A DNA stretch of 64,000 nt, from the NCBI RefSeq assembly GCF_023238445.1, contig NZ_CP096658.1, positions 1,240,001-1,304,000 of the forward strand, in the 5' to 3' direction. The stretch comes from Halorussus gelatinilyticus (GTDB lineage Archaea; Halobacteriota; Halobacteria; Halobacteriales; Haladaptataceae). A program made the position numbers and the translations under genes. Shown in pieces: positions 47,076 through 62,152 of this stretch (within the stretch, counting starts at the first letter, position 1; every line of letters begins with the position of its first letter). Under the pieces are notes generated by a model. It did not search any database. It saw only the letters and a program-made list of their open reading frames with translations, and had not been told where the DNA came from.

Positions 47076-47388
47076 GACTCTGGGGACGCACTCCGGCGAG
47101 TAAATCCCCGAGACAGTTGCAACCGTTTCACGCCGGTTCGACCGATTCTCTGCAGATGAACCGTCACCGTCGAGCGGTCGATTTCGCCGGTCGTCGCCCG
47201 CGAGAGACCCGCCGAACCGAACGTCGAGAAGAGACCGGAAGAACGAAGTTCCGAGGTCGGATACCGTGGAAGGCGACACCCGAACCGAATCCCCGTGTTT
47301 TAAATCGATTCGCCGACCCGACAGCCGTCTTCGCATTTAACCCCTTCGTTTCAACTGGAGCGTCCGGCGCGGGCCGGGCACGGACCCG
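47073..47388. other. Intergenic region with one isolated ORB-like element
   Basis: About 310 bases between two minus-strand genes. It holds the promoter of the zinc-ribbon gene, the AT-rich TTTTAAATCGATTCG near 47298-47312, and an ORB-like sequence at 47339-47360. No credible gene seen. Confidence 0.55.
47339..47360 (-). repeat. Orphan ORB-like element
   Basis: Minus strand reads CTCCAGTTGAAACGAAGGGGTT, the same core as the origin elements, about 9 kb left of the origin. Confidence 0.6.
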
Positions 47389-51132: not shown

Positions 51133-51331
51133 GCGGCGTCGGAAGCGCTGGACTCCGCCGCGCTCGCGTCGGGTTCTCGGACGGATTACGTTCTCAAATA
51201 TGGATATTTTCCGACGTATAGACGCCTCCAGACGAAATAGAGGGGTAACTACGGAACAGTAGCATCAAGCAGATAATTTCGGCGGAAAAACGAGTCGGCT
51301 CGCTTCGCAATCGCCACTCGCTCGATGGTCC

Positions 51332-54241: not shown

Positions 54242-54333
54242 GTCAGTGCTCCGGCGCGACTCGGTTCGTCAGCGCCCCGGTTCGACTCGGTTCGTCAGTG
54301 CGACCCCATTCGACCCGATTCGTCAGCGTTCCG
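54242..54333. repeat. Tandem repeats of ~26-28 bp at the 3' end of oapC
   Basis: Units start at 54242, 54268, 54294 and 54322 with GTCAGYG, and each full unit ends CGACTCGGTTC or CGACCCGATTC. On the minus strand each unit begins with a TGA-CGAAYC block equal to the oapC stop region, so the repeats are successive copies of the gene's end. Confidence 0.65.
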
Positions 54334-55111
54334 TAGCGTCCCACGCGTCGGGGACCTCGATGACGTACTTGCCGTCCTCTTGGAGCGAGATGATGTACTC
54401 CTCGCGTTCGTACAGTTCCATCAGGTTGAGTTCGTACTGGCCCGGATTGACGATGCGGATGCTCTCGAACTGACTGTTGAGTTCCTCGCGGAGTTCCTTC
54501 AGACCGGGGTTCTCGTCGTCGGGTGCGCCGACGACGTTCTCGTCGTCCGCGTCGGCCGGAGCGGGACCGACCTGCGCGGCGTCGTCCGGTGGTTCGGGGA
54601 GTTCCGAGTCGCTGACCACGTCGGAGCGCGCGCTCGCCTGCGCCGAGTCCTCGGCGCTCGGTGCGTCCGGGGCCGGAGTGTTTCGAGTGGAACCGCCGCG
54701 GTCGCGTTTGGTGGCGGAACCACCCTCGGGGGCGGAAGCGGTCTCGGTGTCGTCTCGCGTGCTCACCCAGTCGCGGACGGTCGCGGCCGCGCGGTTGACC
54801 GCGCCCGAAGCGGCACCGCCGTCCGCCGAGTCGTCGCGTCGCATCGATTCGGTCGCGCCGCGGTTCCCGTTCGCACCACTTCGACCCCCGGTTTCGGGTG
54901 CGTCGCGGGCGGACCGAGCGTTCTCCGGCGTCTTCTTCGGTTCGGTCGCCGGGGAGGCGGTCCCCGCGCCGACGCCGCCGCCAGCGTTCCCATCTGCGGC
55001 GCTCGCAGGTTTGAACTGGAACTTGTTCCCGCCACAGTCCGGACAGCCCGACAGCATCTCCTTCGAGCCGTCCTCGAACGTCCGACCGCAGTTGGTACAC
55101 TGGTGTGGCAT
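54323..55111 (-). CDS. oapC: Origin-associated zinc-ribbon protein OapC
   Basis: 262 residues. N-terminal zinc ribbon HQCTNCGRTFEDGSKEMLSGC and CPDCGGNKFQF, then ~150 residues of disordered Ala/Gly/Asp/Ser sequence, and a C-terminal conserved domain FESIRIVNPGQYELNLMELYEREEYIISLQEDGKYVIEVP. The two conserved ends with a long variable middle are typical of the haloarchaeal OapC protein, found next to the replication origin. Role unknown. Last of the oapA-oapB-oapC series, 13 bases after oapB. Confidence 0.88.
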   Translation of the reverse strand: MPHQCTNCGRTFEDGSKEMLSGCPDCGGNKFQFKPASAADGNAGGGVGAGTASPATEPKKTPENARSARDAPETGGRSGANGNRGATESMRRDDSADGGAASGAVNRAAATVRDWVSTRDDTETASAPEGGSATKRDRGGSTRNTPAPDAPSAEDSAQASARSDVVSDSELPEPPDDAAQVGPAPADADDENVVGAPDDENPGLKELREELNSQFESIRIVNPGQYELNLMELYEREEYIISLQEDGKYVIEVPDAWDATER

Positions 55112-55124
55112 TATTGGTATGACA

Positions 55125-55514
55125 TTATTTCCGGGAGACGAGCGCGCTGATGAGGTTCTCGTCCTTGTGGAGCGTCTCGATTTGGTTCGCCGGGCCGATG
55201 ACCGTCAACTTCTGGGTCGATTCCTTGCCCATCAGTCGGTCGAGGAAGCTCTGGTCGGCGGTCTCCGAACGAGGGTACGTCTCGATTTCGATGCCGTTGA
55301 ACTCGTCGGGACTTATCTCGGTCATCGTCACCTCGATAAGTTTGCTCTCCTCGTCGGGCGAGAGGCCGGTTTCGAGGATGACGATGTTGCCGTCGCGGAC
55401 GCCGTCGAGTATCATCCGAATCTTCTCCATCGACGCCATCTCGGCCATCCGGTCGGCTCCGATGAGGTCGATCTGGACGCCGTCGTTCGGGCCGTTCTCT
55501 GTCACTTCCGGCAT
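55125..55514 (-). CDS. oapB: Origin-associated protein OapB (DUF2073)
   Basis: 129 residues, no membrane segment. Core: GVQIDLIGADRMAEMASMEKIRMILDGVRDGNIVILETGLSPDEESKLIEVTMTEI and FLDRLMGKESTQKLTVIGP. DUF2073 proteins occur across Euryarchaeota next to the Era-like GTPase gene. In haloarchaea the pair lies beside the origin. Four bases separate its ATG from the oapA stop, so the two are made together. Biochemical role unknown; GTPase partner is a reasonable inference. Confidence 0.9.
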   Translation of the reverse strand: MPEVTENGPNDGVQIDLIGADRMAEMASMEKIRMILDGVRDGNIVILETGLSPDEESKLIEVTMTEISPDEFNGIEIETYPRSETADQSFLDRLMGKESTQKLTVIGPANQIETLHKDENLISALVSRK

Positions 55515-55518
55515 GATA

Positions 55519-56160
55519 TCACCCGAAGTACTCCGCGATTTTGTCGTACACTTCGTCCATGTTCTCGCCTTCGAGCGCCGAGAGCGGAATCGTCTCGTGC
55601 TGCGGGAAGGCGTTGCGAATGCGCTGGACGCTCGAATCTTCGAGGTCCGTCTTGTTGGCCAGAATCAGGACCGGCAGGTCTTGGCTCTCGATGATGCCGA
55701 TGAGCATCGTGTTGACCTGCGTGAAGGGGTCGGTCGTGCTGTCCAGCACGTAGATGACGCCATCCACGTCTTCGCGGAGCCAGTGCATCGCTTCGGCGAC
55801 GCCTTCGGTGGCTTCGCGGGAGCGACGCACGGCGTCGTCTTTCTCCATGTCGTGGTCGAGGAACTCCTCGTAATCCACCTTGGTCGTCACGCCGGGCGTG
55901 TCCACGATGTCGATAGACACCGTCTTGCCGTCGCGCTCGATTTCGACGTTCTCCTTGCGACGTGCGCGTCGCGTCTCGTGCGGAATGTGGCTTTCTGGAC
56001 CGATTGCGTCACCGGTCCAATCGCGGGCGATACGATTTGCGAGGGTCGTTTTTCCGGCGTTCGGCGGGCCGTAGATACCGATGCGCTTCGGCTCTTGGGC
56101 CGAGAAGAGCTTGTCCGTAACGCGGGAAATGCTGTCTTTCAGGTCCGTAAACAATCCCAT
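55519..56160 (-). CDS. oapA: Origin-associated Era-like GTPase OapA
   Basis: 213 residues. G1 GPPNAGKTTLANRI, G3 DIVDTPGVTT, G4 ILANKTDL, G5 PLSALEGENMDEVY. Era/Obg-like small GTPase without extra domains. First gene left of the origin, transcribed away from it. Unlike most genes here it has a strong Shine-Dalgarno (GGAGG at 56166-56170, 5 bases before the ATG) and a long 5' leader, with a TATA-like CTTTAAGTAGG ~80 bases upstream. It may couple ribosome or cell status to replication; this is only suggested by location. Confidence 0.92.
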   Translation of the reverse strand: MGLFTDLKDSISRVTDKLFSAQEPKRIGIYGPPNAGKTTLANRIARDWTGDAIGPESHIPHETRRARRKENVEIERDGKTVSIDIVDTPGVTTKVDYEEFLDHDMEKDDAVRRSREATEGVAEAMHWLREDVDGVIYVLDSTTDPFTQVNTMLIGIIESQDLPVLILANKTDLEDSSVQRIRNAFPQHETIPLSALEGENMDEVYDKIAEYFG

Positions 56161-56389
56161 CCTTTCCTCCTAGTCCCCACTATCGGCGTACGCAACCGTC
56201 ACGGGGGCTGTTGCGCGAACAACTCTATCCCACCTACTTAAAGCTATGTCAGACACCACTCCGGAAAATACGGGTTTAGCTACCCGAAACGAACTCGGCG
56301 GGCGTTTCGAGTCAAGCAGAAAGCGATGGAAGCGAGCGGATGACGACTCGGCGAAGAAGGCCACCGTTTCGACTCGAACTCGGTCGTAC

Positions 56390-56900
56390 GGCGTCTTCGA
56401 GGGAGTTCGGGAGAGACCAGAGAGAGGAGACGAGACTCGGAGGAACGCCGCGTGTTCCAGTTGAAACGGTGGGGTTGTGGGGAGAAAAGCCGAAGAGAGA
56501 ACCTGAGAACGGCAGAACGGGAGACGCAAATTTGGACCGAGAGTAAGGAGACGACTCGAAGACGGAAGCGTGAGACGAGTGTTGGGAGACAGGAGACGGA
56601 AGATAGGTGCTGGGAGACGAGTGTTGGGAGATTGGAGACGAGAGATGAGAGACGAGAAAGGGGAAATTGGAGAAGGGAATTGGAAACGAGTGACTAGAGA
56701 GTAACTGGAGGCGGTGAGCCGGAGAAGATTATCTATGAGCGTGAACTGGAGTAGTCGAATAGAGAGATTGAGCAGAGCGGTCGGGTGAGGGGTTGGACGG
56801 AGAGGTTGAGTGGAGAAATCGAGGCGAGGCTGAGCAGAAAGGAGCAGGAGTAGTAACGAAATGGCAAAGCGGAGGCGACTCGGACGGATTCGACCCGACA
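56390..56900 (+). repeat. Purine-rich (GA) tract with 18-base direct repeats
   Basis: About 500 bases where the plus strand is dominated by G and A (GAGACGAG/GGAGA words). GAGACGAGTGTTGGGAGA occurs exactly at 56572-56589 and 56614-56631. Such strand asymmetry is not explained by coding. Confidence 0.65.
56454..56477 (+). repeat. ORB-like element (variant)
   Basis: GTTCCAGTTGAAACGGTGGGG: matches the ORB except GGTG for GAAG. Left arm of the origin. Confidence 0.55.
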
Positions 56901-56934
56901 CATGTCGGGTCTCCCGTGGATAGTCGCCCACCCT

Positions 56935-56957
56935 CACCCCTTCGTTTCAAGTGGAAC
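56935..56957 (-). repeat. ORB element, left side of the AT-rich segment
   Basis: Minus strand reads GTTCCACTTGAAACGAAGGG then GTG. Full-length element, facing the opposite way to those on the right. Confidence 0.85.
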
Positions 56958-57017
56958 TGGGAGAGACGGTGGGCCGGTAGTGTGGCAGCTGGTTCATTTC
57001 CACGAACACCAAAGAGA

Positions 57018-57095
57018 AACGAAGAAGAATGACTAGGATAGACTAGTTTGCAGATATTGTTTTACCTTTACTGTGATAAAGGTTTCCGTCCAAAA
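57018..57095. other. AT-rich duplex-unwinding candidate
   Basis: Clearly the most AT-rich stretch between the ORBs, including GATATTGTTTTACC and the inverted repeat CCTTTA-CTGTGA-TAAAGG (57065-57082). Its place between oppositely oriented ORBs fits the initial melting site. Confidence 0.65.
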
Positions 57096-57125
57096 GTCAC
57101 CCCTCCCCACCCTCTCCGTTTCCTC

Positions 57126-57148
57126 GCTCCACCTGAAACGAAGGGGTG
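57126..57148 (+). repeat. ORB element, right side of the AT-rich segment
   Basis: GCTCCACCTGAAACGAAGGG then GTG, followed by a further G-run (GTGGGGGAGG). It is the best consensus copy. Confidence 0.85.
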
Positions 57149-57180
57149 GGGGAGGGCCAACGTCTACTCACCCACTGAGA

Positions 57181-57200
57181 GTTCCACCCGAAAAGACCGA
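57181..57200 (+). repeat. Half-ORB element
   Basis: GTTCCACCCGAAAAGACC keeps the left half of the ORB but lacks the GAAGGGGT half. Confidence 0.35.
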
Positions 57201-57326
57201 CAACGATTCGGCTACGTACTACAACGACTCGACCGTGGGCTACGACGACCGTCGAGTCCTGGTTGGTCGAACTACCGAAACGAGGTAGAGAAGACCAATT
57301 AGCGCGTTCCACCCACACTCTCTGCC

Positions 57327-57350
57327 GTTCGACCGGAAACCAAGGGGTAG
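57327..57350 (+). repeat. ORB element
   Basis: GTTCGACCGGAAACCAAGGG then GTAG; one base change in the core, with the G-run after it. Confidence 0.75.
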
Positions 57351-57530
57351 GGGAGGGACGACGCAATGCCTTTCTCTCTTGCACTCGATCGCGGTCGGTT
57401 TCGGCCTCGGCTTTCAACCAAACGCTGCTTCACCTCTCAATCGAGCTCTGCCTCGACTCTCGACTGGTTTGGCTTCGGCCTCGGTCTCTTCGACCCGGTA
57501 CTCCCCCGTCACGACGTCGATTCGACCGCG

Positions 57531-57555
57531 GTTACACCCGAAACGAGGGGGTTCG
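57531..57555 (+). repeat. ORB element
   Basis: GTTACACCCGAAACGAGGGG then GTTCG. Confidence 0.75.
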
Positions 57556-57639
57556 ACGGCGGGAAATCAGTGCCTGAAATCCAATGTGGGTCTCGTTTTA
57601 CTCGCCGTTATCGTGCCTTTTGGACGCTCTCCTGGGCAT

Positions 57640-57663
57640 TTCCCTGAGTTGAAACGAAAGAAG
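57640..57663 (+). repeat. Degenerate ORB-like element
   Basis: TTCCCTGAGTTGAAACGAAAG keeps GTTGAAACGAA but not the G-run. Confidence 0.4.
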
Positions 57664-57789
57664 AAAGAGTTTAATACCCTGCTGGACCTTTAGTTCTCCT
57701 GCATCAACTGGACGCGCTCGCAACTTCTCGACCTCGGCATCCCGGCGCTTTCGGTCGGTTTCGCCGAAATCCGCTCTCGCGTTGCGCGT

Positions 57790-57812
57790 CTTCCACCTGA
57801 AACAGAGGGGTC
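57790..57812 (+). repeat. ORB element at the orc1 start
   Basis: CTTCCACCTGAAACAGAGGG then GTCG, ending 11 bases before the orc1 ATG, in the place expected for promoter or start-site binding. Orc1 could control its own gene here. Confidence 0.75.
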
Positions 57813-57823
57813 GGCACGAACGT

Positions 57824-59314
57824 ATGTCAGACGAAAACAGCCAACCGACGGACGACGCGGTCGATGTGAGCCCCGACCGGAGCTTCGACAACGTCGATCT
57901 CGACGACGTGGTCTTCGACGACGAGGACGACGACCAAGGGCTCTTCGACGACCTGTTGTCCGGCGAACCGATATTCGAGAACAAGGAGGTCCTCCGGCCG
58001 TCCTACACGCCGCACGAGTTACCTCACCGGAAGGACCAGATCAACAACATGGCGACGATTCTGGTCGCCGCGCTCCGCGGGGAAACGCCCTCGAACATCC
58101 TGATATACGGCAAGACCGGGACTGGCAAGACGGCGAGCGCGAAGTTCGTCAGCAAGGAACTGGAGAGTACCTCTCAGAAGTACGACGTACCCTGCAACGT
58201 CGAGTACATCAACTGCGAGGTGACCGACACCCAGTACCGCGTCCTCGCCCAACTCGCCAACAAGTTCATCGAGAGCAACCGCGAGTGGGTCTCCGACCGC
58301 GTCGAGGAACTCGACGCGCTCCGTGAGGAGGCCGCGGCCGACCCCGACCGGCTCGCCGACACCGACTTCGACTCGCCCGAGGCCGTGGACGCGCGCATCG
58401 AGGAGTTGGAGGACGACCGCGAGGAGATGGAGTCGGTCCCCATGACCGGGTGGCCGACCGACCGCGTGTACAACACGTTCTTCGAGGCCGTGGACTACGA
58501 GGAGCGCGTGGTGGTCATCATGCTCGACGAGATCGACAAGCTGGTCGAGAAGTCGGGCGACGACACTCTCTACAACCTCTCGCGGATGAACTCCGAACTG
58601 GAGAACTCCCGAGTATCCATCATCGGCATCAGCAACGACCTGAAGTTCACCGACTTTCTCGACCCGCGAGTCAAGTCCTCGCTCGGCGAAGAGGAGATCG
58701 TCTTTCCGCCGTACGACGCCAACCAGTTACGTGACATCCTCCAGCACCGCGCAGAGGTCGCGTTCAAGGCCGACGCGCTGTCGGACGACGTGATCCCGCT
58801 CTGTGCCGCCTTCGCCGCACAGGAACACGGCGACGCGCGGCGCGCGTTAGACCTCCTGCGGACCGCGGGCGAACTCGCCGAGCGCGACCAGGCCGAGGGC
58901 GTCAACGAGAAGCACGTCCGGAAGGCCCAAGAGAAGATAGAACTCGACCGCGTTGTCGAGGTCGTCCGTACCCTGCCCACCCAGTCGAAACTCGTCCTCT
59001 TCTCCATCATCTCGCTGGAGAAGAACGGCGTCCACAACGTCAACACGGGCGAGGTGTACAACATCTACAAGCGCCTCTGCGAGGAGATCGACGCCGACGT
59101 GCTGACCCAGCGCCGCGTCACCGACCTCATTAGCGAACTCGACATGCTCGGCATCGTCAACGCGGTGGTCGTCAGCAAGGGCCGCTACGGCCGGACGAAG
59201 GAGATCAGCCTCTCGGTACCCATCGACGAGACCGAGGCGGTCCTGATGTCGGACTCCCGACTCGGTGACATCGAGAGCGTCCAGCCGTTCGTGCAGGCCC
59301 GGTTCGACAACTGA
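57824..59314 (+). CDS. orc1: Origin recognition protein Orc1/Cdc6
   Basis: 496 residues from the ATG at 57824; the frame is open further upstream through the ORB, but the upstream residues are not family-like. Very acidic N-terminus, then AAA+ domain: Walker A YGKTGTGKTASAKFV, Walker B VVIMLDEIDKLVEK, sensor 1 IIGISNDLKFTDFLDPRV, sensor 2 GDARRALDLLRTAGELAE. C-terminal winged helix (LPTQSKLVLFSIISLEKNG; TQRRVTDLISELDMLGIVNAVVVSKGRYGRTKEI) binds the ORB. It is the cognate initiator of the adjacent origin. Confidence 0.97.
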   Translation: MSDENSQPTDDAVDVSPDRSFDNVDLDDVVFDDEDDDQGLFDDLLSGEPIFENKEVLRPSYTPHELPHRKDQINNMATILVAALRGETPSNILIYGKTGTGKTASAKFVSKELESTSQKYDVPCNVEYINCEVTDTQYRVLAQLANKFIESNREWVSDRVEELDALREEAAADPDRLADTDFDSPEAVDARIEELEDDREEMESVPMTGWPTDRVYNTFFEAVDYEERVVVIMLDEIDKLVEKSGDDTLYNLSRMNSELENSRVSIIGISNDLKFTDFLDPRVKSSLGEEEIVFPPYDANQLRDILQHRAEVAFKADALSDDVIPLCAAFAAQEHGDARRALDLLRTAGELAERDQAEGVNEKHVRKAQEKIELDRVVEVVRTLPTQSKLVLFSIISLEKNGVHNVNTGEVYNIYKRLCEEIDADVLTQRRVTDLISELDMLGIVNAVVVSKGRYGRTKEISLSVPIDETEAVLMSDSRLGDIESVQPFVQARFDN

Positions 59315-59383: not shown

Positions 59384-60175
59384 CTACGCCGCGCCGGAGA
59401 ACTGGAGGCGGACCCAGCCGAGCCACGGGATGCGGACCTCCGCGGTACCCCGAATCCAACTCGGCTTCACGGGGTCGCTTATCTCCATGCCGTTCGACTG
59501 GTCGTAGTAGGGGTTCGCGTCGCCCTTGGTGATGAACCCGGCGTTGGGCGCGGGGCAGTTGGTCAACTGTTCGCAGTTCTCGGCTTGGACGTACTTCTTG
59601 TTCGCCTCGTCGTACCAGTTTTCGCCCTTCTCGACCCAGAATCTGGCGCGATGGATTATCGGCGTCGCGTACTCGCTACCGTCGGGTTTGTAGACGATGA
59701 CGTCACCGTAGCTGTTGAACGTCTTGTATCCCGCCTCCTTTCCAGCTTGGTAGCCGACGACGCCGGTGCCCTGCTGGGCGGCCGCGGGCGCGAGACGACC
59801 CTCCTCCATGATGAACACGAGGTCGCCCTTCTCCATGTGTGGCTCCATGCTACCGCTCTCGATGGCGACCATCGGCGGCCAGACGCCGCTGATGGCGAAC
59901 AGCAGGAGACCGATGGCCAACACGATGCCTGCGCTACTCAACACCTCGCGGACGAACACCACCACTTCGTTGTCGCTGCTGCGGAACCGACGAACGAGCG
60001 CGAGCGGGCCGGTGCCCTTCTCGCGCTCGCCGCCGTCGAACCGGGCGTCGCGCTCGGCGCGCGAGCGGTCGGTCCCGGTCGCGGCCGCGTCGTCGGAGCG
60101 CCCGCCGGACGAGGAGCGCGGGCCGTCGGCCCGTCCCTCCTCGTCGGAAGAGGGGTCGTCTCGGGAAGAACTCAT
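59384..60175 (-). CDS. sec11: Signal peptidase I, archaeal Sec11-like
   Basis: 263 residues from the ATG at 60175 (a GTG at 60184 is possible). A disordered acidic/Ser/Arg N-terminus (~70 residues), a membrane anchor (VLSSAGIVLAIGLLLFAISGVW), then the catalytic serine in IESGSMEPHMEKGDLVFIM, the second box NSYGDVIVYKPDG, TPIIHRARFWVEKG (the Lys/His site is His, as in Sec11) and FITKGDANPYYDQ. It removes Sec signal peptides outside the membrane. The order orc1-sec11-polD1 is a known haloarchaeal origin neighbourhood. Confidence 0.94.
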   Translation of the reverse strand: MSSSRDDPSSDEEGRADGPRSSSGGRSDDAAATGTDRSRAERDARFDGGEREKGTGPLALVRRFRSSDNEVVVFVREVLSSAGIVLAIGLLLFAISGVWPPMVAIESGSMEPHMEKGDLVFIMEEGRLAPAAAQQGTGVVGYQAGKEAGYKTFNSYGDVIVYKPDGSEYATPIIHRARFWVEKGENWYDEANKKYVQAENCEQLTNCPAPNAGFITKGDANPYYDQSNGMEISDPVKPSWIRGTAEVRIPWLGWVRLQFSGAA

Positions 60176-60397
60176 CGCACCCACCTTACCGTTCCGAGGT
60201 TGTCAATTTTCCGGGTCGGGGCCGCGGTCGAACGCGACGGCATGGCCGACGCCGGAACGAACGCCGGGAGTACAGAATCGTCGAAGATGCGACGAGCCAC
60301 CGCCGACCCGACCCACCCGATTGCTCACCCTGTCGCCGGTTGCCGTACCGTGGTGCGCTCCGCTATCCTTTTGACGAACCCCCGCAATCGAGTGAAC

Positions 60398-62095
60398 GTG
60401 CCGCTTGAGACGCCCGCTCGTATCGTCAGCGAACTCACTAGTCGCGGGTACAACGCCGACCGCGAGGCCGTGACGCTCCTCTCAGGGGCCGACGACCCGG
60501 ACGCTGCGCTCGACGCGGCCGTCGAGCGCGCCCCCGACGACGCGCTGAAAATTTCTGCGGACCACGTCGAGACGGTCCTCGCAGAGTTCGAGCGGGCCGA
60601 CACCTCTGTTTCGAATGGAAACGAATATGAGAATAACCCAGTGGGGGAGACGAGCCCTCCACAGGAAACGAAGGGGGTTCGCGGGAACAGGAACACCGGC
60701 GAAGTCGCGCAGGCGAGTAAAGCGACGGACGCAGGTGGAGTGACGGACGCAGGCGAAGTGACGGACGCGGGCGAATCGACGAACGCGGGCGAATCGACGA
60801 ACGCGGGCGACGGCGTCGGCGAGAACGTCAGCGACGTTTCGCGGCCCGACGAGTCGATCAGAGACCCCGACTTGGACGAACGGTCGCTCGAAATCGAGGG
60901 CGACGTGACCGGTGAGAGTACCGGCACGGGCGAGTACGCCGACTTCGTGTCGGTGTTCCGCGACCGGTTCAAGCGTCTCAGCAAGCAGTTGCGCTCGCGG
61001 GTCAACGCGCGGCCGACCACCGCGGTCCAGAAGATGCCCGGCGGCGGCGAGACCGCCATCGTCGGGATGGTCAGCGACATCCGCTCGACCACGAGCGGCC
61101 ACTGGCTCATCGAGTTGGAAGACACGAGCGGGACCTACCCCTGTCTCGTCATGAAGGACCGGGAGTTCGCCGACGCGGTGGACGAACTCCTCCACGACGA
61201 GGTCATCGCGGTCGAGGGCACGCTCTCGGACGACAACGACGACGGCGACGGCATCCTCTTCGTTGACTCGCTGTACTTCCCCGACGTGCCCCGGACCTAC
61301 CAGCCTTCGACCGCCGACCGCCACGTACAGGCCGCGCTCATCAGCGACGTCCACGTCGGCAGCCAAGAGTTCATGGCCGACGCGTGGTCGCGGTTCGCCG
61401 ACTGGCTCCACACCGAGGAGGCCGAACACGTCGAGTATCTGCTGGTCGCGGGCGACATGGTGGAGGGCGTCGGCGTCTATCCGAATCAGGACGACGAGTT
61501 GGACATCGTGGACATCTACGACCAGTACGAGCAGTTCTCGGAGTACCTGAAGGAGGTGCCCGGCGACCTCGAAATCCTGATGATTCCGGGCAACCACGAC
61601 GCGGTCCGCCTCGCGGAACCGCAACCCGGTTTCGACGAGGAGCTACGGGACATCATGTCGGTCCACGACGCCCGAATCTCGGGCAATCCCTCGACCGTCA
61701 CCGTCGAGGGCGTGGACATCCTGATGTACCACGGCGTCTCGCTGGACGAGGTCATCGCGGAACTCCCCGACGACAAAGCGAGCTACGACGACCCCCACAA
61801 GGCGATGTACCAACTCCTGAAGAAGCGCCACGTCGCGCCCCAGTTCGGCGGGAAGACCCGTCTCGCGCCCGAGGAGGAGGACTACCTCGTGATGGACACG
61901 GTGCCGGACGTGTTCCACACCGGCCACGTCCACAAACTCGGGTGGGGCAAGTACCACAACGTCCTCGCGGTCAACTCCGGGTGCTGGCAGGAACAGACCG
62001 CGTTCCAGAAGTCGGTGAACATCGACCCGGACGCCGGGTTCGCGCCAATTCTCGACCTCGACACGCTGGACATGACCGTCCGGCAGTTCAGTTAA
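60398..62095 (+). CDS. polD1: DNA polymerase D small (exonuclease) subunit
   Basis: 565 residues from the GTG at 60398, whose N-terminus PLETPARIVSELTSRGYNADREAVTLL is family-like. A disordered linker (about 65-185) holds 6-residue repeats (DAGGVT, DAGEVT, DAGEST, NAGEST, NAGDGV). Then an OB fold (AIVGMVSDIRSTTSGHWLIELED) and an Mre11-like phosphoesterase: ALISDVHVGSQEF, VAGDMVEGVGVYP, IPGNHDAVRLAEP, LMYHGVSLDEV and VFHTGHVHKLGWG. All metal ligands look present, so the 3'-5' proofreading exonuclease should work. Partner of polD2 (19605-23153). Confidence 0.96.
   Translation: MPLETPARIVSELTSRGYNADREAVTLLSGADDPDAALDAAVERAPDDALKISADHVETVLAEFERADTSVSNGNEYENNPVGETSPPQETKGVRGNRNTGEVAQASKATDAGGVTDAGEVTDAGESTNAGESTNAGDGVGENVSDVSRPDESIRDPDLDERSLEIEGDVTGESTGTGEYADFVSVFRDRFKRLSKQLRSRVNARPTTAVQKMPGGGETAIVGMVSDIRSTTSGHWLIELEDTSGTYPCLVMKDREFADAVDELLHDEVIAVEGTLSDDNDDGDGILFVDSLYFPDVPRTYQPSTADRHVQAALISDVHVGSQEFMADAWSRFADWLHTEEAEHVEYLLVAGDMVEGVGVYPNQDDELDIVDIYDQYEQFSEYLKEVPGDLEILMIPGNHDAVRLAEPQPGFDEELRDIMSVHDARISGNPSTVTVEGVDILMYHGVSLDEVIAELPDDKASYDDPHKAMYQLLKKRHVAPQFGGKTRLAPEEEDYLVMDTVPDVFHTGHVHKLGWGKYHNVLAVNSGCWQEQTAFQKSVNIDPDAGFAPILDLDTLDMTVRQFS
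60656..60681 (+). repeat. ORB element inside the polD1 coding sequence
   Basis: CCTCCACAGGAAACGAAGGG then GGTTCG, in the linker part. A weaker match TTTCGAATGGAAACGAATAT lies 47 bases upstream (60609-60628). Confidence 0.65.
60724..60813 (+). repeat. Five 18-bp tandem repeats in the polD1 linker
   Basis: Units at 60724, 60742, 60760, 60778 and 60796, consensus ACGRACGCRGGYGAAKYG, in frame and encoding the 6-residue TDAGEx repeats. Confidence 0.8.
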
Positions 62096-62127: not shown

Positions 62128-62152
62128 GCTCCACCTGAAATGAAGGGGTTCG
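62128..62152 (+). repeat. ORB element downstream of polD1
   Basis: GCTCCACCTGAAATGAAGGG then GTTCG, one change from the origin copy at 57126. It lies between polD1 and the convergent GNAT gene. Confidence 0.75.

Follow-up and report, generated by a model that had tools for sequence, protein, structure and literature searches.

Gene content and origin recognition boxes of the predicted oriC1 spacer

The 64,000-nucleotide stretch analysed here (the window; positions 1,240,001 to 1,304,000 of contig NZ_CP096658.1, assembly GCF_023238445.1) comes from the haloarchaeon Halorussus gelatinilyticus. Between oapA and orc1 it contains a spacer, at 56161-57823, that is predicted to be oriC1, the Orc1-dependent main chromosomal origin of an ordinary and already well described type. 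Copies of the origin recognition box (ORB) of this origin were also found outside the spacer. These satellites, which include a divergent couplet inside the gene for DP1, the small subunit of DNA polymerase D, are the main subject of this report. ORBs were scored against a consensus of 18 defined bases, allowing up to 3 mismatches (4 for weak copies). Papers with PMC numbers are cited from those parts of their text that were accessible. The genes and the features of the spacer are listed below in window coordinates.

54323-55111, minus strand: oapC (PF09845)
55125-55514, minus strand: oapB (PF09846)
55519-56160, minus strand: oapA, a small GTPase
56161-57823: predicted oriC1 spacer, the oapA-orc1 interval (1663 bp), recognised by six ORBs and an AT-rich core in a layout shared with relatives
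56456-56475, plus strand: distal left ORB (3 mismatches)
56936-56955, minus strand: inner left ORB, followed by GAGGGTGGGC
57018-57095: AT-rich core, presumed unwinding element (35% GC)
57099-57113: C-rich arm, read by eye; right arm of the G-rich inverted repeat (an enhancer, PMC3936714)
57128-57147, plus strand: inner right ORB, carrying the G-string GGGGGAGGG
57329-57348, plus strand: ORB with the extension AGGGGAGGG
57533-57552, plus strand: ORB without a G-string
57792-57811, plus strand: ORB at -32 of the orc1 start codon, presumed autoregulatory, its position fixed in relatives
57824-59314, plus strand: orc1, the cognate initiator (NCBIfam equivalog NF001625 'ORC1-type DNA replication protein', 660.8 bits, cut-off 501)
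60392-62095, plus strand: DP1 (NF003116, 957 bits, cut-off 425)

The window contained 9 matches to the ORB consensus, whereas 100 dinucleotide shuffles gave a mean of 0.03 and a maximum of 1. An earlier note on this DNA had claimed at least five ORBs, one on the minus strand near 56935 and four on the plus strand between 57126 and 57812, and all five were recovered (56936 on the minus strand; 57128, 57329, 57533 and 57792 on the plus strand). Its picture was incomplete rather than wrong, as it missed a sixth ORB at 56456, on the oapA side, and ORBs continue beyond the spacer on both sides. The AT-rich stretch that it placed at 57018-57095 between opposed ORBs was borne out by a GC content of 35%, against 66% for the window, and by an inverted inner pair whose arms (56926-56962 and 57121-57157) are 84% complementary. 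In GC content, the 78-bp low spot at 57008 ranks second from the bottom among separate spots of that length in the 64 kb. The note was also right to describe a cognate orc1 next to the spacer and oapABC facing away from it, all three oap genes lying on the minus strand.

The halophile G-string that follows the inner ORBs is present, as GGGGGAGGG in the right copy and as the weaker GAGGGTGGG in the left. Within the spacer, a G-rich extension follows only the inner pair and the ORB at 57329. The G-rich inverted repeat, which enhances oriC1 in Haloarcula and is reported in half-visible form for some other genera (PMC3936714), is likewise only half visible by eye, with a clear right arm at 57099-57113 and a weak left arm. 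The claim of a complete oriC1-type origin therefore stands for nearly every testable sequence feature, with conservation in relatives, but not fully for this repeat. The ORB at -32 of orc1 occupies the spot expected for a promoter box.

The oapA orthologue of Haloferax volcanii, renamed ArvA, is a GTPase reported to drive extracellular vesicle formation (PMC10927574), and the position of oapA beside oriC1 may therefore not reflect a role in replication. A gene between orc1 and DP1 (59384-60172, minus strand) resembles archaeal signal peptidase I, scoring 50.5 bits, just under the NCBIfam cut-off of 51.85.

Conservation of the origin in relatives

A match to orc1 at an E value of 1e-140 or better was found in 144 of 145 genomes of the order, with two matches each in G045 and G052. 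Long stretches around orc1 were available for 16 genomes and the spacer could be delimited in 15 of these; in the other, G027, oapA was not found near orc1. In all 15 delimitable spacers, the two ORBs of the inner inverted pair are separated by 162-189 bp and enclose an AT-rich stretch. An ORB starts 25-33 bp before the orc1 start codon in all 13 same-family genomes, with up to 3 mismatches in 12 of them and with 4 in G021. Moreover, a plus-strand ORB lies to the left of the inner pair in all 13 same-family spacers (up to 4 mismatches). The left part of the spacer is richer in purine than the right in 14 of 15 genomes and equal in one; in the window, the 660 bp at 56239-56898, between oapA and the inner left ORB, are the most purine-rich stretch of that length (69% purine).

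This layout matches that of oriC1 as described in PMC3528665 and PMC3936714. The oriC1 loci of Haloarcula hispanica, Haloferax volcanii and Halobacterium share with it the orc1 neighbour, the inverted G-string ORBs around an AT-rich core and the synteny with oapABC. However, satellites outside the spacer are not described for them in the accessible parts of the literature examined.

An intact sequence could nonetheless belong to a dormant origin, the chromosome being replicated from another one. Haloferax mediterranei has dormant origins that carry inverted ORBs (PMC4595724), and the host genome, a single contig of 3,668,365 bases, has a substantial orc1 match at six other places. However, oriC1 ranks first in activity among the origins of Haloferax volcanii (PMC7776575), and conservation of the locus within the genus of the window is complete; we regard dormancy as very unlikely. 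The six further Orc1/Cdc6 matches on this chromosome show 33-44% identity, weaker fragments lie near 1.764 and 2.949 Mb, and further origins on the chromosome are likely.

Satellite boxes outside the origin

The boxes of the window that lie outside the spacer are as follows.

47340-47359, minus strand: satellite ORB, 29 bp after the stop of a DUF5789 gene
51227-51246, plus strand: weak satellite ORB (4 mismatches), about 95 bp after a ferredoxin stop
60600-60619, minus strand: left box of the couplet in DP1 (4 mismatches)
60658-60677, plus strand: right box of the couplet in DP1 (3 mismatches; 58 bp from the left box, start to start)
62130-62149, plus strand: satellite ORB, 34 bp after the DP1 stop codon

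Across the whole host genome there are 16 ORB matches, of which 6 lie in the spacer, 7 more at less than 133 kb from orc1 and 3 farther away. In the stretches fetched for the 16 genomes, 64 ORBs lie outside the interval from -2000 to 0 of orc1, as against none in the reversed sequences. Chance or base composition was rejected as the source of the ORBs, as both the reversed-sequence and the shuffle controls gave zero or near zero. With the origin excluded, ORB density on the orc1-bearing contigs of 16 chromosomes was 59 per Mb within 30 kb of orc1 (55 ORBs), 7.0 per Mb at 30-150 kb (27 ORBs) and 0.73 per Mb beyond 150 kb (33 ORBs). Matches on other contigs were dropped from these counts, which cover neither G033 (9 listed matches) nor genomes outside the listing or with a short orc1 contig, the latter including G019, G023, G010 and G034. 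Other origins may account for some of the ORBs farther than 150 kb from orc1, such as the inverted pair that G020 has at 248 kb.

This origin-centred gradient, which reaches beyond 100 kb, would suit satellites that organise the origin region, Orc1 at scattered boxes bridging or marking a domain much as parS or other partition sites near an origin do. The fixed 58-bp spacing of paired divergent boxes described below would suit it as well. However, there are few boxes per chromosome and we know of no partner protein or spreading for haloarchaeal Orc1; we consider such a role unlikely.

The positions of the satellites relative to genes recur among relatives. In 15 of the 16 genomes of the genus that were examined, an ORB on the strand of DP1 follows its stop codon by no more than 100 bp, the exception being G010, which has none within 150 bp. 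An ORB within 100 bp after the DUF5789 gene was found in 7 of the 8 genus genomes with long stretches. In G005, the remaining one, an ORB occupies the corresponding position although no DUF5789 match was detected; the same 3′ box is present in 3 of 5 other family members. After the ferredoxin gene, 5 of the 8 genus genomes have better copies than that of the window. Identity at satellite sites was 0.89-0.96, against about 0.25-0.46 in the flanks, the within-box values being inflated because the boxes were first found by their match to the consensus (the peptide-anchored codon counts given below avoid this). The fraction of G after the box was 0.30-0.37 at satellites and 0.63-0.65 at the inner pair, which means that the satellites have no G-string.

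Two further accounts of this arrangement were considered. The satellites are not mirror-symmetric, all pointing away from the origin, since inversion of the upstream gene carries the box over to the other strand with it (as for the DUF5789 gene and its ORB in G002 and G004) and the ferredoxin ORBs point towards the origin. A 3′ RNA element or terminator is unlikely, as the same box also occurs inside coding DNA and on both strands.

A divergent couplet inside DP1

In several named haloarchaea, boxes outside the spacer pair divergently within DP1. A set of 81 DP1 genes was assembled. Of these, 57 came from the 145 genomes, 46 of them from genera outside the family, each represented once, and 11 from within it; 13 came from the genomes already compared, and 11 from the 12 named loci searched. 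A further 4 of the 16 named loci had been left out, and one Halorubrum metagenome-assembled genome had no DP1 match. The linker before the OB-fold carries at least one box in 65 of the 81 genes at up to 4 mismatches, and the full couplet in 40. The spacing of the couplet is 58 bp in 33 of these, 55 bp in 5 and 70 bp in 2. Across the 177 kb of sequence scanned there were 98 ORB matches at up to 3 mismatches, 3′ boxes included, as opposed to none in the reversed sequence. When one genome was taken per genus, a linker box was present in 37 of 49 at up to 3 mismatches and in 39 at up to 4, with the couplet in 24.

Both sites of the couplet are coding and its boxes always fall in the same reading frames, as would also hold if a conserved protein motif (PSVSTG ... 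SPVETKG) resembled ORBs by accident. Codon choice at the two sites was therefore counted with the sites located by peptide and not by DNA, again in one genome per genus. The codons matching the box were close to fixed: Glu is GAA in 37 of 37 cases (28% in the conserved part of DP1), Gly is GGG in 35 of 37 (23%), Pro is CCA in 30 of 30 (6%), Val is GTT in 24 of 24 (8%), Gly is GGA in 23 of 24 (10%) and Thr is ACT in 22 of 22 (6%). In the rest of the linker use of these codons is somewhat higher but far from fixed (GAA 37%, GGG 26%, CCA 14%, GTT 15%, GGA 18%, ACT 12%). They are still kept in several genomes that fall under the box match threshold. Since codon choice at these sites follows the ORB, selection at the DP1 boxes acts on DNA. 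The motif, moreover, sits in an otherwise variable linker, it matches ORBs on either strand, and non-coding DNA nearby holds the same box. Together with the fixation of rare synonymous codons at both peptide-located sites, this makes an accidental resemblance highly improbable.

In a set of 20 genomes compared for distance, DP1 is not beside or close to orc1 in 18, and 19 of the 20 have at least one DP1 box. Eight genes were added for this comparison, most of them chosen for a DP1 far from orc1, and all 8 carry at least one box. Boxes are retained where DP1 lies 11-59 kb from orc1, and in G097 the couplet is retained at 193 kb; the DP1 box is therefore tied both to its gene and to the region around the origin. 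G124 is without a DP1 box at this threshold, with DP1 only 5 kb from orc1.

Boxes that travel with genes in this way, as does the DUF5789 3′ box where that gene is inverted or moved, favour satellites that are sites of an Orc1 regulon. Orc1 bound in or after DP1 and near other genes would tune transcription and thereby match the supply of polymerase D to initiation. Deletion of cdc6A from Haloarcula hispanica is difficult even though oriC1 can be removed, and the authors suggest a transcriptional role for Cdc6A (PMC3936714); the same observation fits titration, regulation or organisation alike. However, most satellites lie 3′ of genes and not at promoters, the one after DP1 being between convergent genes, and the steep concentration around the origin is not predicted by regulation alone. 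A regulon is possible but doubtful.

On the host chromosome, two of the far ORBs lie at -86 and -132 kb from orc1. Next to the one 86 kb upstream (L022 1501-1700, near 1,211,537 of the chromosome), the adjacent open frame encodes SPVETEG, the peptide that an ORB imposes in DP1, and a second box may sit there.

Interpretation and significance

The origin itself is one more example of a well-known type; the satellites are the unexpected part. It is probable that the spacer is oriC1 and that the satellites, taken jointly with it, are Orc1 sites; Orc1 binding at the satellites is inferred from their match to the origin boxes. Orc1 would bind the inverted G-string ORBs (56936 and 57128), unwind the intervening AT-rich DNA and recruit MCM, and the ORB at -32 probably lets Orc1 repress orc1. 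Lacking a G-string, the satellites would bind Orc1 without starting replication, since oriC1 plasmids of Haloarcula hispanica cannot replicate without the G-strings and lose their function when one is mutated (PMC3936714). Satellites near the origin would be doubled right after firing and could then soak up free Orc1, delaying a second start. That the satellites titrate Orc1 in this manner is the reading that we prefer, at a probability somewhat short of even.

Titration by a cluster of ORBs has been argued from experiments for oriC2 of Haloarcula hispanica (PMC3936714). In oriC2D of that species, as here, ORBs lie outside the minimal origin and are proposed to titrate the initiator; unlike here, 11 ORBs are packed into one 722-bp spacer directly downstream of cdc6E (PMC3936714), whereas the Halorussus boxes are linked to oriC1 and dispersed over tens of kb. 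The satellites thus resemble a titration locus in that several initiator boxes lie outside the minimal origin, but they are scattered singly or in couplets rather than clustered in one locus. datA and other DnaA-box loci of Escherichia coli likewise hold initiator boxes remote from the origin, where they may act as a sink. The bacterial initiator and its box differ from Orc1 and the ORB. In Halorussus, moreover, the boxes are densest close to the origin, and a couplet sits inside a replication gene.

Several observations weigh against this reading of the origin and its satellites. No DP1 linker box was found in 10 of the 49 genera at up to 4 mismatches. The persistence of the couplet 193 kb from orc1 in G097 fits a gene-linked role as well as it fits titration, and plain titration does not predict that satellites stay on the strand of the gene whose 3′ end they follow, as they do even after gene inversion in G002 and G004. 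Furthermore, the genomes are related and the counts are not independent events, although the P-values for box density and for codon use presuppose independence.

PMC3528665 sought ORBs only in the spacers flanking orc/cdc6 genes and would therefore have missed the satellites. The accessible parts of the literature, including PMC4595724, PMC7776575, PMC3119063 and PMC4010727, yielded no report of oriC1-type boxes within DP1 or scattered around oriC1; coverage of subscription papers was thin, so that this is not proof of absence.

A wider proposal, which we hold more tentatively than titration, is that haloarchaeal Orc1 might regulate the whole origin region as well as opening the origin, through an origin-centred array of boxes lacking the G-string together with the DP1 couplet, which fixed rare codons maintain in many genera; this function would outlast the loss of oriC1 and explain why orc1 resists deletion although oriC1 can be deleted. 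The satellites are named, individually testable candidate sites for a known puzzle, the vital role of the oriC1 initiator outside oriC1 (Cdc6A; PMC3936714, in its accessible parts). If true, a binding site kept in a polymerase gene by synonymous codons, in most of the haloarchaeal genera sampled, would be an unusual, direct link between initiator and replicase. The satellites hint at a second job for the initiator around the origin.
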